Under the pieces are notes generated by a model, which was not told the origin of the DNA, did not search any database, and saw only the letters and a program-made list of their open reading frames with translations. The position numbers and the translations under genes are program-made. 64,000 nt of DNA from assembly GCA_017537365.1 (NCBI GenBank), contig JAFYKZ010000030.1, positions 1-64,000 of the forward strand. The letters are read 5' to 3'. Source of the stretch: Clostridia bacterium (GTDB lineage Bacteria; Bacillota; Clostridia; Oscillospirales; Acutalibacteraceae). Within the stretch, counting starts at the first letter, position 1, and each line of letters opens with the position of its first letter. This document shows, piece after piece, positions 14,875-36,723 of the stretch.

Positions 14875-15117
14875 GCTTTTAAGGGGTTTGAGGAGAGAAT
14901 TTCTCTTATATTTTGAGAAATTATACCAAAACGGGTGCGGCGCCCATTTGGTACGCTTATATAATAAAATAAAAATATTTACATTTTAAATATAATTTGT
15001 GAATTAATTTTTAATTTTTTAAAATTGTATAGACTTGTGTTTTGCGTCAATAATAATGATTGTAGTTAGTAGAAGCATATCCATTATAAAAATGAAAAAA
15101 TGAAAGGAATTAAGGCT
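14875..15117. other. Intergenic region with structured GC-rich patch
   Basis: With the crp promoter and the hairpin at 14843-14874, this makes about 370 bases without a gene. AGAGAA-T-TTCTCT lies at 14894-14906. A hairpin at 14924-14953 (TACCAAA … TTTGGTA enclosing GGGTGCGGCGCCC) is strikingly GC-rich against an AT-rich background. The remainder (14960-15100) is very AT-rich and should hold the promoter of the SpoIIQ-like gene; I could not assign clear -35/-10 boxes. No tRNA or known riboswitch was recognised. Confidence 0.5.
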
Positions 15118-15798
15118 ATGAAATACACACAAGGCTATAAAAATAAAAAAATGCGCTTTTCGGTTGGATTTTATACCGTTATTGCGCTTTGCATAATGCT
15201 TGTTGGCGGAGGTTCTTATTTTGCGATAAATAAGGTTGCAAAAGCAAAGCCTGAAACAAACAACAGTGAATATGAGGACAACGGTTCTTCATATATTAAC
15301 AGTGTACCCGAAATTCCCGAGATTTCCACCCCCACAACTCAAAGCACCGAAAGCGTTCCTTTTGAAAGCCAAAAACCTGAGAGTCAGGCAGCACCTTTGA
15401 ATTTTACTATGCCTGTTGAGGGCAGAGTTTTAAAAGATTTCAGCTTAGAGCGTTTACAGTACTCTGAGACCTTTGGCGATATGCGTATTCATACTGGTAT
15501 AGATATCGAATGCGAAAAAGGAACTGCGGTTAGCGCTTGTTCAGACGGCAAAATTATTTCGGCCGAAAAAACCGCCGATTTAGGTTTCACAATTACTATC
15601 GACCATTCGGGTATAACGGTAAAATATTCTGCTTTATCTGATGTTACCTTAAAACAGGGTGATAGTGTTAAAATGGGCGATATAATCGGCAAGGCAGATA
15701 CAGTACCGTCAGAGTGCGGAGATAAATCTCATATTCATTTAGAGGTTTTAAAGGACGGCAAATCGGTATCACCTTTAAAAGCATTAGGAATTTCTTAA
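15118..15798 (+). CDS. SpoIIQ-like membrane-anchored M23 (LytM) protein
   Basis: A 226-residue protein with a short cytoplasmic N-terminus, one transmembrane segment (about 18-38), a low-complexity Ser/Pro/Glu linker (about 45-95), and a C-terminal M23/LytM domain. The metal-site residues are intact: the HxxxD motif in HTGID and the HxH in SHIHLE. Size and architecture match SpoIIQ, the forespore half of the SpoIIQ–SpoIIIAH channel in sporulation. The convergent neighbours encode dipicolinate synthase, supporting a sporulation role. An alternative is a vegetative peptidoglycan endopeptidase. The ATG at 15118 is preferred to 15100 because AAAGGA lies upstream. Confidence 0.7.
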   Translation: MKYTQGYKNKKMRFSVGFYTVIALCIMLVGGGSYFAINKVAKAKPETNNSEYEDNGSSYINSVPEIPEISTPTTQSTESVPFESQKPESQAAPLNFTMPVEGRVLKDFSLERLQYSETFGDMRIHTGIDIECEKGTAVSACSDGKIISAEKTADLGFTITIDHSGITVKYSALSDVTLKQGDSVKMGDIIGKADTVPSECGDKSHIHLEVLKDGKSVSPLKALGIS

Positions 15799-31720: not shown

Positions 31721-33139
31721 TTAAGAAATCATTTCTTTTAATAGTTTGTTGATTAAATCAGGTGAAGCAGTTCCTCTGAGCTCGCGCATAGCGGCGCCGA
31801 ATACGGCAAGTATTGCCTTTTCTTTTCCTGCTTTATAATCTTCAATAGCTTTTGGATTGTTTTCGATAGCCTTTGCAACAACCGATTTAACAAGCTCGAT
31901 ATCGTTTTGAGCGGTGAGGTTGTTTTCTTTGCAATAGCTTTCGGGGTCAACGTTTTCTAAAATAACCGCGGTTAAAACTGTTTTACCTGCGTTACGGGTG
32001 ATTTCACCTTTGTTTGCAGCGTTTATAATCCAAGCAAATTTATCGGTATCAAGAACTAAATCCTTAGGTTGAATATTGTTCTTCTTTAAGATACCGAGAC
32101 CGTCTGTAAGCAACCAACCTGCTGCGGTTTTAGCCTCAATACCTTTTGCGATAACACCGTCTAAAATAGCCGATAAATTAGCCTCTGCGGCTGCGGCATT
32201 TGCCTCTTTTTCGGATAGACCTAAGCTCATATATTTTTCAATCTGCTCAGAAACAGTTGCCGGCATATCTGCTTTTATTTCTGCAAGCCATTCGTCGTCT
32301 ATAACAACAGGCATAACATTCGGGTCGGGGAAATAGCGGTAATCTGCCGCAGTTTCCTTGTTTCTCATCGGGAAGGTGCGCTTTTTAACATCATCCCAAC
32401 GGCGAGTTTCCTGAACTAAAATTTCGGTTCTTCTTTCAATAGCATCAATGTGGCGAATAGCCTCTTTATTGATAGCCTCCTCAATAGAGGTTAAAGAACT
32501 CATATTTTTAATCTCGGTTCTAACACCTAAAACCTCGCTACCCTCAGGACGAACAGAAATGTTAATATCGCATCTCATAGCACCCTCTTCACATTCTGAA
32601 ATTCCTGCGAATTGGAGCTTAGATTTAAGCGCTTTAAGATAGCTTATAACCTCTGCGGAAGAACGGAAATCAGGCTTGGTAACAATTTCGATAAGCGGAA
32701 CGCTTGTGCGGTTATAGTCAACAAGGGAAGAATCATTAGTGTGAACTAACTTACCTGCATCCTCTTCAACGTGAATTTGCTTAATACCGATTTGGCGGGT
32801 TTCGCCTGCAACCTCAACATCAACCAAACCCTCAACGCATATAGGGTGGAACCATTGGGTTGTTTGGTAAGCGGCGGGCAAATCGGGATAATAATAACTT
32901 TTTTTATCAAAGGTTGTATACTGATTAATTTTGCAGTTTAGCATAAGACCTGCTTTAACTGCAAGCTCGATTGCGTGGCGGTTAACAACAGGAAGCATAC
33001 CGGGCATACCCGAGCAAGCGGGACAAACACAGTCGTTAGGCTCGTTTGCGCTTGAATGACCTCCGCAAGAGCAGAAAAGCTTTGATTCGGTAGATAACTC
33101 AACATGAGTTTCAAGACCTATTACTAATTCGTAACCCAT
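31721..33139 (-). CDS. gatB: Asp-tRNA(Asn)/Glu-tRNA(Gln) amidotransferase subunit B
   Basis: A 472-residue GatB that phosphorylates the side chain of mischarged Asp/Glu-tRNA and transfers ammonia. It looks intact: GLETHVEL near the N-terminus, a zinc site from FCSCG and CVCPAC, KSYYYPDLPAAYQ, IHVEEDAGK, VDYNRTSVPLIEIV, MRCDINISVRP, DYRYFPDP, and a C-terminal YqeY-like tRNA-binding domain. GGGAGG precedes the ATG. It is the last gene of the aspS-gatC/gatA-like/gatB operon, two bases after the GatA-like gene. Its conservation argues that the complex still amidates tRNA. Confidence 0.97.
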   Translation of the reverse strand: MGYELVIGLETHVELSTESKLFCSCGGHSSANEPNDCVCPACSGMPGMLPVVNRHAIELAVKAGLMLNCKINQYTTFDKKSYYYPDLPAAYQTTQWFHPICVEGLVDVEVAGETRQIGIKQIHVEEDAGKLVHTNDSSLVDYNRTSVPLIEIVTKPDFRSSAEVISYLKALKSKLQFAGISECEEGAMRCDINISVRPEGSEVLGVRTEIKNMSSLTSIEEAINKEAIRHIDAIERRTEILVQETRRWDDVKKRTFPMRNKETAADYRYFPDPNVMPVVIDDEWLAEIKADMPATVSEQIEKYMSLGLSEKEANAAAAEANLSAILDGVIAKGIEAKTAAGWLLTDGLGILKKNNIQPKDLVLDTDKFAWIINAANKGEITRNAGKTVLTAVILENVDPESYCKENNLTAQNDIELVKSVVAKAIENNPKAIEDYKAGKEKAILAVFGAAMRELRGTASPDLINKLLKEMIS

Positions 33140-33141
33140 AA

Positions 33142-34323
33142 TTATACCTCCCAGGTGGCGTTAGCAATACTTAAAAGAGTATTGTCTTTAAACGAGTCTG
33201 CCATAAGCTGAACACCATTAGTAACAACGGCAGGGCAACCCGAAAGCGAAGCCAAAACAGTATATTTGCTTTCTTCGAAAACCTTATTGAAGCTATCCTT
33301 TAAATCGTAGCTTTCAAACTGCTTACTACTAGCGGCGGCAGTTAGAATAATATCATAATTTTCAAAGATTTTCTTTATTTCCTCGGTTATAACTCGACGG
33401 ATTCTCATAGCCTTATCATAGCAAATTTCATATCTGCCTTTAGAAAGAGCATCAGAGCCATAAAGAATAGTAGCTTTTGCTAAGAAACCCATACCCTCGG
33501 TTCTTGTGTTAACATAAATATCGTCTATATTCTTGAAGTTCGGGGTGCGGTATCCGTATTTAACACCGTCAAACTTAGAGAGGTTATTACAGGTTTCTGC
33601 GGATAACAAAATTTGCCAAGCAGACATAGCGGCATCTAGATTTTTAAAGGAAATTTCCTCCACGGTAGCCCCTAAATCTATAAGCTTTTGCTTATAATCT
33701 GCAACTGATTTTTTAACCTCGTCAGAAGCATCTTCAACTAATTCTTTAATAATACAAACTTTTTTACCCTTAACGGTATCATTTAAGGAATAATCATAAG
33801 CTTCCTTTAAATCGCTTGTACCGTCCTTATCGTCATGACCTGCGATAACAGATAAAATTTCTGCCGCTTTCTTTGCATTTTTTGCCATAACACCGATTTG
33901 CTCGCCTGAGCAGGCGCAAGCAATAACTCCGTAACGAGAAACGGTGCTGTAAGTCGGTTTAATGAAAATGATATCTTCTGCGGCGGCGGCTCTTCTCGGA
34001 GCACCATTTAAGTCAACGCATAAAGCGGCTTCAACATCACCGCTTGATACGAGGGATGCTGCTGCATTTTTTAAATTTCCGTTTTCGGTATCAATGCCAT
34101 AGTAAGAAGTTTCGCCTAATAAATCGAGGCCAAATTCGCCAACATTTGCTTTGCCCGAAATAGTATATCCTGATTTTTCAAGCCTTTCAACTGCTTCAGC
34201 GCTAAAAAGAGGAGCGAATGAGTCTAGAATATGAGAGCCTGCAGAAGCGAGAACATCTTTTACTAAAATGTTATCATCAACTGCAATATTTCCGTTTTTG
34301 TTTATTTCAGTTATATATCTCAT
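33142..34323 (-). CDS. gatA: GatA-like protein lacking the amidase catalytic triad
   Basis: 393 residues versus about 485 for normal GatA. It is recognisable from ISGKANVGEFGL (equivalent to the IGKxNMDEF region), KPTYSTVSRYGV, IAGHDDKDGTSDL, ETCNNLSKFDGVKYGYRT and the C-terminal scaffold. The roughly 70 N-terminal residues are gone. By alignment from memory, the catalytic Lys of the KDN motif is Asp (AVDDNI, about residue 16). The GGSSGGS loop is replaced by LKNAAAS (84-90). The nucleophile Ser in TGGSIRQP is Ala (LNGAPRR, about 108). The protein should therefore be unable to hydrolyse glutamine, yet the frame is intact, coupled, and in the usual operon position. ATG at 34323 is set by GAGGTG. 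Confidence 0.88.
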   Translation of the reverse strand: MRYITEINKNGNIAVDDNILVKDVLASAGSHILDSFAPLFSAEAVERLEKSGYTISGKANVGEFGLDLLGETSYYGIDTENGNLKNAAASLVSSGDVEAALCVDLNGAPRRAAAAEDIIFIKPTYSTVSRYGVIACACSGEQIGVMAKNAKKAAEILSVIAGHDDKDGTSDLKEAYDYSLNDTVKGKKVCIIKELVEDASDEVKKSVADYKQKLIDLGATVEEISFKNLDAAMSAWQILLSAETCNNLSKFDGVKYGYRTPNFKNIDDIYVNTRTEGMGFLAKATILYGSDALSKGRYEICYDKAMRIRRVITEEIKKIFENYDIILTAAASSKQFESYDLKDSFNKVFEESKYTVLASLSGCPAVVTNGVQLMADSFKDNTLLSIANATWEV

Positions 34324-34333
34324 TCTACTCACC

Positions 34334-36451
34334 TCATTTCACAACCTTGGGGACAATCCAACTGTCCTCATTACTGTCTGGCGCGCCTTTTAATAGGTCG
34401 GCGCGGTCAAATTTCTGAATACGAACATCCTCGCGGAAAACATTGAATCGTGGAGCTACATAAATCATAGGCTCGGTGTTTTCGGTATCAATATTGTTCA
34501 TAGTATTTTCGGCGGTTTTCATAGCGCTGAAAATATTTTTCATAGTTTGTTTTTCATCTTTTGTAAGGCAGATTTCGTTAACGCTCTCTAATGCTTTAAG
34601 CTTATCATCCTCGCTTAAAACTGCTGAGTCTTTTGCGCCGCTCATTTGAGCATTGCCGCTAGCGGTAGAGGAAGAGAATTTAGCGCCCTCAGTTCCTCTG
34701 ATAGCAATATTTGCCTCAAATAATTGCATTTCACTAACCGGGCTAGGAGCACCGAGCATCTGGTCGCGAGCATTACCGTCTAACGGGAATACTATAACAT
34801 CGCGGATAGTTTCGGTATCTTCTAAGAGCATTATCATACGGTCAACACCGGGAGCCATACCGGCATGCGGTGGCGCACCGTATTGGAAAGCTTCATAAAG
34901 CGCGCTGAATCTTGCGGCTAATTCCTCTTCGGGATAGCCTGCGATTTCAAACGCTTTTTTCATAATTTCAATATCGTGGTTTCTAACTGCACCCGAAGCT
35001 AGCTCAATGCCGTTACAAACAAGGTCATACTGATAAGCTAAAATTTCGGTTGGGTCTTTTGTAAGCAATGCTTCAAGACCGCCCTGAGGCATTGAGAAGG
35101 GGTTATGAGTGAATATGATTTTATCGGTGCTTTCATCGTGCTCATACATCGGGAAATCAACAATGAAGCAGAACTCGAAACTGTTAGTATCTATTAAATC
35201 ACATTCTTTACCGAGCCAGTCTCTAACATAGCCTGCATTTTTAGCGGCAACCTCTTCAACCATATCGGAAATAAAGAATATCGTTTCGCCTTCTTTAACC
35301 TTTGTAAGCTCAATGATTTCTGATTTTTGAGCATCACTTAACTTTTTAACAATCGGGTCGTCTTTAAACTCGCAATTTGCTTTATCAAGCAAGGTTATAT
35401 GAGCTAAGCCCTGCATACCTAAATCTCTTGTTGCAAAGTTTAAGGATTTATCAAAGAACCATCTTTCGTTTTTGCAGGGAGCAACAATAGCTCTAACAAC
35501 CTTATTTTTGAAAACAGGGAAGTTAACACCTTTGAAAAATTCGGTTAAATCCATAATTTCAAGGGGGTTTCTAAGGTCAGGCTTATCGTTACCGTATTTA
35601 AGCATTGATTCCTTAAAGGTGATATGTCTGAAAGGAACTTCACTTATCGGTTTATGGTTTCCGATGAATTTTGTGAAAATAGCACGGATAACTCTTTCGC
35701 AAACACCTAAAACTTCTTCTTGGGTTGAAAATGCCATTTCAAAGTCTAACTGATAGAATTCACCTGGTGAACGGTCAGCACGGGCGTCCTCATCTCTGAA
35801 ACAGGGAGCGATTTGGAAATATCGGTCAAAACCTGATACCATAAGAAGCTGTTTAAACTGCTGAGGAGCCTGAGGCAGAGCATAAAACTCGCCGATATGC
35901 TTTCTTGAAGGAACAAGGAAGTCTCTTGCGCCCTCAGGAGAAGAAGCTGTTAATATAGGAGTTTGAATTTCTAAAAATCCTTCATTCTCCATAAGCTCTC
36001 TCATATATTTTATAATTTGAGAACGCTTATAAATGCTAGAAGAAACCTTTGGATTTCTCAAATCCAAAAATCTGTTTTTAAGTCTTATATTTTCATTGGA
36101 AGACTTAGAGGTTAAAATTTCAAATGGTAGGTTTTTGGTGCATTTACCAAGAACCTTAAAGCTCTCAACGATAAGCTCAACCCTACCGGTATCAATAGCA
36201 TTGTTAACCGTTTCCTCGTCTCTTAAAGTAACAGTACCTTTAACCGAAATAACTGTTTCGATTTTCTGAGAATCAACCTCAGCAATCATAGCAGGGTCGT
36301 TGATAACAAGCTGAGATACACCGGTATAATCGCGAAGGTCAACGAACAAAACTCCGCCATGATCACGCTTAGATTGAATCCAACCTGCAAGCTCAATTTG
36401 AGTTCCAACATGGGATTCGCGCATGTCATTACAGTAATGCGTTCTATACAT
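34334..36451 (-). CDS. aspS: Aspartyl-tRNA synthetase fused to GatC
   Basis: A 705-residue fusion. Residues 1 to about 586 are a bacterial class II AspRS: OB fold with KRDHGGVLFVDLRDY, motif 2 FRDEDARADRSPGEFYQ, a GAD insertion domain, and motif 3 GMAPGVDRMIML. The His in RDHGG is a known feature of non-discriminating AspRSs that also charge tRNA(Asn). After a Ser/Ala-rich linker (about 587-611), residues 612-705 are GatC: CLTKDEKQTMKNIF, NNIDTENTEPMIYV, FREDV, and LLKGAPDS…IVPKVVK. The fusion tethers the Asp-charging enzyme to the amidotransferase. ATG 36451 lies seven bases after AGGAGG. Confidence 0.93.
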   Translation of the reverse strand: MYRTHYCNDMRESHVGTQIELAGWIQSKRDHGGVLFVDLRDYTGVSQLVINDPAMIAEVDSQKIETVISVKGTVTLRDEETVNNAIDTGRVELIVESFKVLGKCTKNLPFEILTSKSSNENIRLKNRFLDLRNPKVSSSIYKRSQIIKYMRELMENEGFLEIQTPILTASSPEGARDFLVPSRKHIGEFYALPQAPQQFKQLLMVSGFDRYFQIAPCFRDEDARADRSPGEFYQLDFEMAFSTQEEVLGVCERVIRAIFTKFIGNHKPISEVPFRHITFKESMLKYGNDKPDLRNPLEIMDLTEFFKGVNFPVFKNKVVRAIVAPCKNERWFFDKSLNFATRDLGMQGLAHITLLDKANCEFKDDPIVKKLSDAQKSEIIELTKVKEGETIFFISDMVEEVAAKNAGYVRDWLGKECDLIDTNSFEFCFIVDFPMYEHDESTDKIIFTHNPFSMPQGGLEALLTKDPTEILAYQYDLVCNGIELASGAVRNHDIEIMKKAFEIAGYPEEELAARFSALYEAFQYGAPPHAGMAPGVDRMIMLLEDTETIRDVIVFPLDGNARDQMLGAPSPVSEMQLFEANIAIRGTEGAKFSSSTASGNAQMSGAKDSAVLSEDDKLKALESVNEICLTKDEKQTMKNIFSAMKTAENTMNNIDTENTEPMIYVAPRFNVFREDVRIQKFDRADLLKGAPDSNEDSWIVPKVVK

Positions 36452-36466
36452 ATTCATTCCTCCTGA

Positions 36467-36688
36467 AAAAATAAAAAGTCCCGAAAATTCCTTAGAATTT
36501 TCGGGACGAGAAAATTAAAATTAACCCGCGGTGCCACCCGTTTTGATGACTAAAAGCCATCCACTTTGAAAGAATATTCGGTTTTAAATTGAATTCGAAG
36601 CGTTCCCAAGTTTACTACTCGTCTCAAATGCGCTCTCAGTCCACGACGCATTCTCCCTGACAGACTTTCCATTTAAACTGAGTCTTCG
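36467..36688 (-). promoter_or_regulatory. T-box riboswitch leader of the aspS-gatC operon
   Basis: On the minus strand the leader carries the T-box sequence TGGCACCGCGGG (36536-36525), which pairs with the free tRNA acceptor end. A terminator follows (GTCCCGAAAATTC / GAATTTTCGGGAC plus T-rich tail, 36508-36467). The 5' part folds as a stem I region (36690-36600), with TTCGAAG/CTTCGAA closing and an inner AATGCG/CGCATT stem. The specifier codon could not be placed with confidence; GAC (Asp) occurs in the candidate region. Uncharged tRNA should switch the operon on. Confidence 0.93.
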
Positions 36689-36694
36689 AATAAT

Positions 36695-36723
36695 ATTATA
36701 TTAAGATTTTTTTGTTTTGTCAA
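36695..36723 (-). promoter_or_regulatory. SigA-type promoter of the T-box/aspS operon
   Basis: Minus strand TTGACA (36723-36718), a 17-base spacer, and TATAAT (36700-36695). Predicted transcription start is near 36688, at the beginning of the T-box fold. Confidence 0.9.

Follow-up and report, generated by a model that had tools for sequence, protein, structure and literature searches.

A GatA homologue without amidase catalytic residues in an aspS-gatC-gatA-gatB operon of gut Clostridia: a predicted ammonia-fed Asp-tRNA(Asn) amidotransferase

The window analysed here, a 64,000-nucleotide stretch (positions 1 to 64,000 of contig JAFYKZ010000030.1, assembly GCA_017537365.1) from a Clostridia bacterium of the Acutalibacteraceae, carries on its minus strand a GatCAB-type operon whose GatA homologue has lost the amidase active site. 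Read in the direction of transcription, the operon consists of a divergent T-box-like leader with a putative AAC (Asn) specifier (36499..36713), a fusion of aspS and gatC encoding 707 amino acids (34334..36457), the altered gatA (33142..34323) and an intact-looking gatB for the amidotransferase/kinase subunit (31721..33139). Convergent with gatB, on the plus strand, lies the gene of P0004 (30525..31679), a divergent asparaginase/GatD-fold protein of 384 amino acids.

The altered GatA and its operon

The bacterial-type aspartyl-tRNA synthetase (AspRS) part of the fusion, approximately residues 1-587, scores over the cut-offs of NCBIfam NF001750 (730 bits) and TIGR00459 (600 bits), and the C-terminal GatC domain (34340..34609, minus strand) lies above the cut-off of PF02686 (41.1 bits; cut-off 23) and slightly below that of TIGR00135 (43.2 bits over residues 617-706; cut-off 47.1). 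The gatB product is over cut-off for both NF004012 (542 bits) and TIGR00133 (480 bits; cut-off 314.8), and the alignment with A. aeolicus GatB spans its residues 3-471 (E 2.3e-116). The operon thus combines a GatB over its cut-off with a GatC, as a GatCAB amidotransferase would.

GatA is regarded as the glutaminase of bacterial GatCAB. In the window protein the amidase Lys79 is replaced by Asp16, the loop bearing the cis-Ser (Ser154) is lost and the nucleophile Ser178 has become Ala108, which bears out the claim of an earlier note on this DNA that all three catalytic residues are gone; all three glutamine ligands of GatA are changed as well. That note had also put the N-terminal shortening at 70-90 residues, and residues are indeed missing there, although only about 63 of them. 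Against TIGR00132 the protein scores 275.3 bits, below the curated cut-off of 481.1, and its predicted structure (all predictions were of single chains) has the GatA fold, as the note's reading of a retained scaffold would have it.

The alteration is the property of a clade rather than of one gene. Relatives were taken as the best 80 of at least 586 matches from a scan of named genomes and divided by their catalytic columns into 34 altered and 46 canonical GatAs; with the window copy and three further loci (L003, L004 and L005, of which L004 comes from the same genome as L071) the altered set comprises 38 rows. The Lys79 column reads Asp in 37 of these 38, the remaining row, L076, being unreadable there, so that a lone mutation or sequencing error in the window copy is ruled out. 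In a 72-row tree the 37 altered rows form one side of a branch with a Shimodaira-Hasegawa-like approximate likelihood ratio test (SH-aLRT) support of 99. Asp16 and Arg111 do not vary among the 20 aligned members (canonical GatA has Gln in the latter column), and across the 38 rows position 178 holds Ala 20 times, Ser 12 times, Thr five times and Tyr once.

Could the protein still be an amidase with a rebuilt site, composed for instance of Asp16, Arg111 and the variable residue 178, acting on glutamine or another amide? The two fixed residues would suit such a site, and the serines at 178 weigh against a purely structural GatA in that they may leave room for a non-classical hydrolase. The Lys, the cis-Ser loop and every glutamine ligand are nevertheless changed, and a position that alternates among Ala, Ser, Thr and Tyr does not behave like a nucleophile; we regard a rebuilt amidase as improbable. 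The loss of catalytic and glutamine-ligand residues throughout the clade supports instead the earlier view that the protein cannot act as the glutaminase.

Decay, whether as a pseudogene or as an artefact of assembly, is less probable still and hardly credible. It would find some encouragement in the gatA of L076, which is split into two open reading frames, in an internal stop in one of the 17 copies found in the sample of the order described below (G180), and in GatA copies that are shortened or degraded in two other genomes (G029 and G025). The window frame is open, however, and between the window and L060 the altered gatA shows a nonsynonymous divergence (dN) of 0.19 against a synonymous divergence (dS) of 2.28, which is saturated, with similar values for gatB (dN 0.14, dS 1.47). 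Because the altered site is conserved clade-wide and dN/dS is low, the comparison supports purifying selection on a retained gene, as does the fixation of the new residues in one clade spread over 17 genomes of eight families; the earlier judgement that decay was unlikely is thereby supported, and the case that the earlier note would have taken as a refutation, mutation of this copy alone, does not apply.

Gene order is equally conserved. The hosts are gut Clostridia with aspS-gatC-gatA-gatB operons: gatB comes after the altered gatA in all 34 loci, and aspS and gatC, fused or separate, lie upstream in 31, the exceptions being two loci that end at a contig edge (L075, L076) and one with gatC but no aspS (L087). 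In a sample of the order, comprising 394 evenly drawn genomes of at least 80% completeness, the altered GatA occurs in 17 genomes of eight families at 527-651 bits, the next match scoring 309. The 34-locus and 17-genome samples may overlap (G051 and G024 are the same genome), and the p-values given below take genomes as independent. Among 24 genomes of the window's genus (G001-G024), only G024 carries the altered GatA; because its copy groups in the tree with other loci and not with that of the window, the operon appears to have entered the genus more than once, as the tree suggests.

Other unusual GatAs came to light. In L070 (607-9815, genome G050) a tandem aspS-gatC-gatA-gatB-gatA-gatB-asparaginase-like array sets a dead and an intact GatAB pair side by side, the altered gatA being the first of the two. 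An aspS-gatC-gatA-gatB operon in G029, whose genome has both an asparaginyl-tRNA synthetase (AsnRS) and a glutaminyl-tRNA synthetase (GlnRS), encodes a 302-residue GatA homologue without the whole catalytic loop region (L014, 1366-2271), which stands on a long branch outside the altered clade and is possibly a separate loss of the catalytic site. In G025, where neither AsnRS nor GlnRS is over cut-off and intact GatA and GatB are also present, a 412-residue GatA-like protein has Glu for the catalytic Lys (L019, 976-2211), with no gatB in its 3.5-kb stretch. A compact GatA of 409 residues in G026 (L013, 1291-2517) keeps the catalytic motifs and lacks a large internal part.

The leader, the synthetase and the need for asparagine

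The window leader matches Rfam RF00230 over its full length in a permissive search (47.3 bits, E 3.2e-9). Ahead of aspS-gatC it holds the core GGGTGGCACCGCGG and a terminator-like hairpin, and an AAC specifier can be read by eye, so that core, specifier and terminator all precede the gene. Of 29 leaders examined, 24, that of the window among them, show the strict core in front of aspS, and each of the 24 has AAC[AG]C upstream of the core, at a distance of mostly 56-93 bases (179 in L081); we read the AAC as an Asn specifier at the base of a predicted stem I. In L159 (G068) a T-box scoring 104 occupies the interval that separates the linked asparaginase from the aspS operon. T-box control of unlinked asparaginases was considered and rejected: 20 asparaginase loci with short flanks (18 unlinked, two linked) gave three RNA matches, the sole T-box being that of L159. 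L060 has a second T-box about 4 kb past its operon (14996-15231, 101.8 bits).

The operon AspRS carries the motif RDHGG and the other AspRS of the window genome RDLGG, and we take His in place of Leu in this anticodon-binding loop to be the mark of a non-discriminating as opposed to a discriminating bacterial enzyme. The His is present in all 28 aligned operon AspRSs, as are the Lys, Asp and Arg of the Asp-binding site. Most likely, then, the operon enzyme is non-discriminating and would charge tRNA(Asn) with Asp, the second AspRS encoded elsewhere being the discriminating one. A disguised AsnRS is ruled out by the three Asp-site residues in 28 of 28 sequences and by the asnS-model score, which at 110.7 bits falls short of the cut-off of 342.6.

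That score is also the best of any protein in the window genome (98.2% complete), in which AsnRS was accordingly not detected. GlnRS is present (738 bits), and the genome has one PF01425 amidase protein and one GatB; a search for a second GatA, or for a second intact gatA/gatB set as the earlier note had proposed, found none. With one amidase, one GatB, a GlnRS and no detected AsnRS, the cell would need the complex for Asn but could do without it for Gln. The 23 genomes of the genus without the altered GatA present the reverse picture, with AsnRS over cut-off in 20 and a GatB match in none. Across the sample of the order AsnRS occurs in 290 of 394 genomes and in none of the 17 with the altered GatA (Fisher p 5e-11), and GlnRS is over cut-off in 28 of the 34 genomes with altered loci. 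GatCAB with the altered GatA is therefore the most probable supplier of Asn-tRNA in this organism.

Taken together, these features lead us to propose, with a probability of about 0.62, that the operon encodes a glutamine-independent, ammonia-fed Asp-tRNA(Asn) amidotransferase in which GatA is structural. Under this proposal Asn-tRNA(Asn) would be made by the indirect route. Uncharged tRNA(Asn) would permit transcription through the AAC T-box; the non-discriminating AspRS would load Asp onto tRNA(Asn); and GatB would use ATP to activate the side chain of that Asp, which it would then amidate to Asn. The altered GatA, its glutaminase role gone, would build the GatCAB scaffold and close the path for tRNA and ammonia. 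Nitrogen would arrive as ammonia from outside GatA, drawn from the cytosolic pool, to which asparaginase-fold amidohydrolases perhaps add locally; the candidate for such an enzyme is the one that adjoins gatB. The T-box-like leader with AAC and the non-discriminating AspRS signature agree with the genome counts: most likely the operon produces Asp-tRNA(Asn), which GatB amidates, and the altered GatA is an improbable source of the ammonia.

Several points, besides the serines at position 178, weigh against this proposal. First, no T-box is found in the window at the RF00230 gathering score of 93, well above the 47.3 bits of the leader, and among eight related loci searched at the gathering threshold only L090 passes at its aspS leader (112 bits, with AAC), for which reason we class the window's leader type as divergent. 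Second, although 28 of the 34 genomes with altered loci, which were drawn by similarity, have no AsnRS over cut-off, six do, and there the complex is not the sole route to Asn-tRNA. Third, in 11 of the 34 genomes a further GatA scores above the TIGR00132 cut-off (that of G059 with an internal stop) and may serve both complexes there, and G034 also has a second GatA, whose residues are intact over the readable part. These are moreover draft genomes, in any single one of which the absence of AsnRS may be a gap. Finally, the proposal offers no more than candidates for the ammonia donor.

P0004 and the source of ammonia

The earlier note had offered three possible sources of nitrogen: free ammonia, some other amidase, or a further GatA. 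The first two stand, whereas the third is without support in the window genome, with its one PF01425 protein and one GatB at 98% completeness; it is possible in relatives carrying a second GatA. To these P0004 adds a further candidate. Only two kinds of neighbour recur around the operon once operon genes and antisense frames are set aside, namely asparaginase-like proteins (13 of 38 loci) and AlaX-like proteins (7 of 38); three of these loci (L176, L186 and L190) had entered the set via an asparaginase or the contig on which it lies, and their removal leaves 10 and 5 of 35 loci. The AlaX-like proteins are encoded near the operon in L076 (3695-4897) and six other loci, and one member scanned contains tRNA-synt_2c, tRNA_SAD and DHHA1.

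The best PDB profile match of P0004 is the archaeal GatD 1zq1 (E 9e-40), with which it shares the SED/SEN motif. It scores 95.2 bits against TIGR00519 for type I asparaginase (cut-off 260.5) and 69.7 bits against the archaeal GatD model (cut-off 324). The catalytic Thr and Thr-Asp are kept in its GGT and HGTD motifs, the catalytic Lys is Gln, and the protein thus qualifies neither as GatD nor as type I asparaginase. A tree of 47 asparaginase sequences, including 20 of the 32 divergent members from the sample of the order, resolves three supported divergent groups. The one with P0004, clade I, has 21 rows, all from genomes with the altered GatA; in every one the catalytic Lys is Gln and the GGT and HGTD motifs remain, and 20 of the 21 lie within 5 kb of the altered gatA, whether downstream, upstream or convergent. 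The other 23 divergent members lie on a different contig from gatA in 22 cases, the place of G364 not being shown. The physical linkage of clade I to the operon is therefore strong.

Occurrence follows the same lines. PF00710 gives exactly one match in 27 of the 34 genomes with altered loci (24 divergent and low-scoring, three of ordinary type) and none in seven, and no match in the 16 same-genus genomes without the altered GatA that were compared, out of the 23. In the sample of the order, 164 of 394 genomes have an asparaginase match at E 1e-12, of which 32 at 209 bits or more constitute the divergent type (three partial matches of 138-160 bits, in G285, G328 and G195, were left out). The divergent type is found in 14 of the 17 genomes with the altered GatA, G034, G445 and G232 being the exceptions, and in 18 of the 377 others. 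Of those 14 genomes, 11 have it next to the operon, as compared with none of the 15 canonical-GatA genomes for which places are shown, where it is always on another contig (the Fisher test used 14).

One possible account is that P0004 is a dedicated generator, hydrolysing Asn or Gln and passing the ammonia to the altered GatCAB much as GatD does for GatE in archaea. The linkage in varied orientations, the co-occurrence and the GatD-like profile speak for it; the Gln at the catalytic Lys in all of clade I and the unlinked divergent groups found alongside canonical GatA speak against it. Alternatively, P0004 may serve salvage: without AsnRS, free Asn would be useless for translation, and an asparaginase would recycle it to Asp and ammonia, the linkage reflecting shared regulation and the amidotransferase running on bulk ammonia. 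In keeping with this, 31 of the 32 genomes with the divergent type have no AsnRS match (G423 is the exception), and 17 of those 31 are without the altered GatA. Yet among the 104 genomes lacking AsnRS the gene is far commoner with the altered GatA (14 of 17) than without it (17 of 87), none of the 15 canonical-GatA genomes shown has it next to gatA, and the lost Lys of the linked clade weighs against this account too. Because of that substitution and the unlinked groups, we consider salvage a tentative possibility, short of even odds, and a dedicated generator rather unlikely. P0004 stays an unproven candidate donor, and an ammonia-fed amidotransferase is compatible with either role.

More doubtful still is the full picture that the parts might compose, a four-part glutamine-independent Asn-tRNA(Asn) factory of gut Clostridia with a T-box-controlled AspRS-GatC, a pseudoenzyme GatA, GatB and a GatD-like ammonia supplier. 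In such a module glutaminase work would have moved to an unrelated fold, convergently with archaeal GatDE, and the module would spread between families, displacing AsnRS.

Comparison with known systems

If the proposal is true, a clade has kept GatA as a scaffold only and yet needs it for the asparagine in its proteins, which would make glutamine hydrolysis and tRNA amidation separable in nature, where free-ammonia assays had previously only hinted at it. Protein synthesis in these rumen and hindgut bacteria would be tied directly to the ammonia supply, and the complex would offer a natural system for studies of ammonia entry and channelling. Among the open-licence papers listed by the literature searches, we found no report of a GatCAB with a naturally glutaminase-dead GatA.

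The C. acetobutylicum operon for tRNA-dependent Asn synthesis is reportedly T-box-controlled (Saad 2012, 2013) and is said to have a normal glutaminase as its GatA. The window operon resembles it in being a T-box-type route to tRNA-dependent Asn in a relative of Clostridium, and differs in that its GatA is dead. With canonical GatCAB the window operon shares GatB, GatC, the GatA fold and an AspRS of the non-discriminating type, but its GatA, 393 amino acids long compared with 485 in S. aureus, lacks the amidase and glutamine-binding residues. The pairing of a non-discriminating AspRS with GatCAB is known (PMC4206432). That a GatCAB-type enzyme can take up NH4Cl as donor likewise has precedent in a yeast GatFAB variant with reduced glutaminase, whose transamidase activity was raised when NH4Cl was supplied (PMC4027206).

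For P0004 the comparison is twofold. It has the fold and the GGT/HGTD motifs of type I L-asparaginase, whereas SEN and YHSGT stand in place of family motifs and no catalytic Lys is left. The model for the linked P0004 is archaeal GatDE, where an asparaginase-fold protein supplies ammonia to a GatB-family amidotransferase subunit; GatE, however, is not a GatB accompanied by GatC and an altered GatA, and in P0004 the N-terminal part of GatD is missing and Gln occupies the position of the catalytic Lys. Should P0004 prove to be the donor, bacteria would have an equivalent of GatDE, and the architecture would be new.
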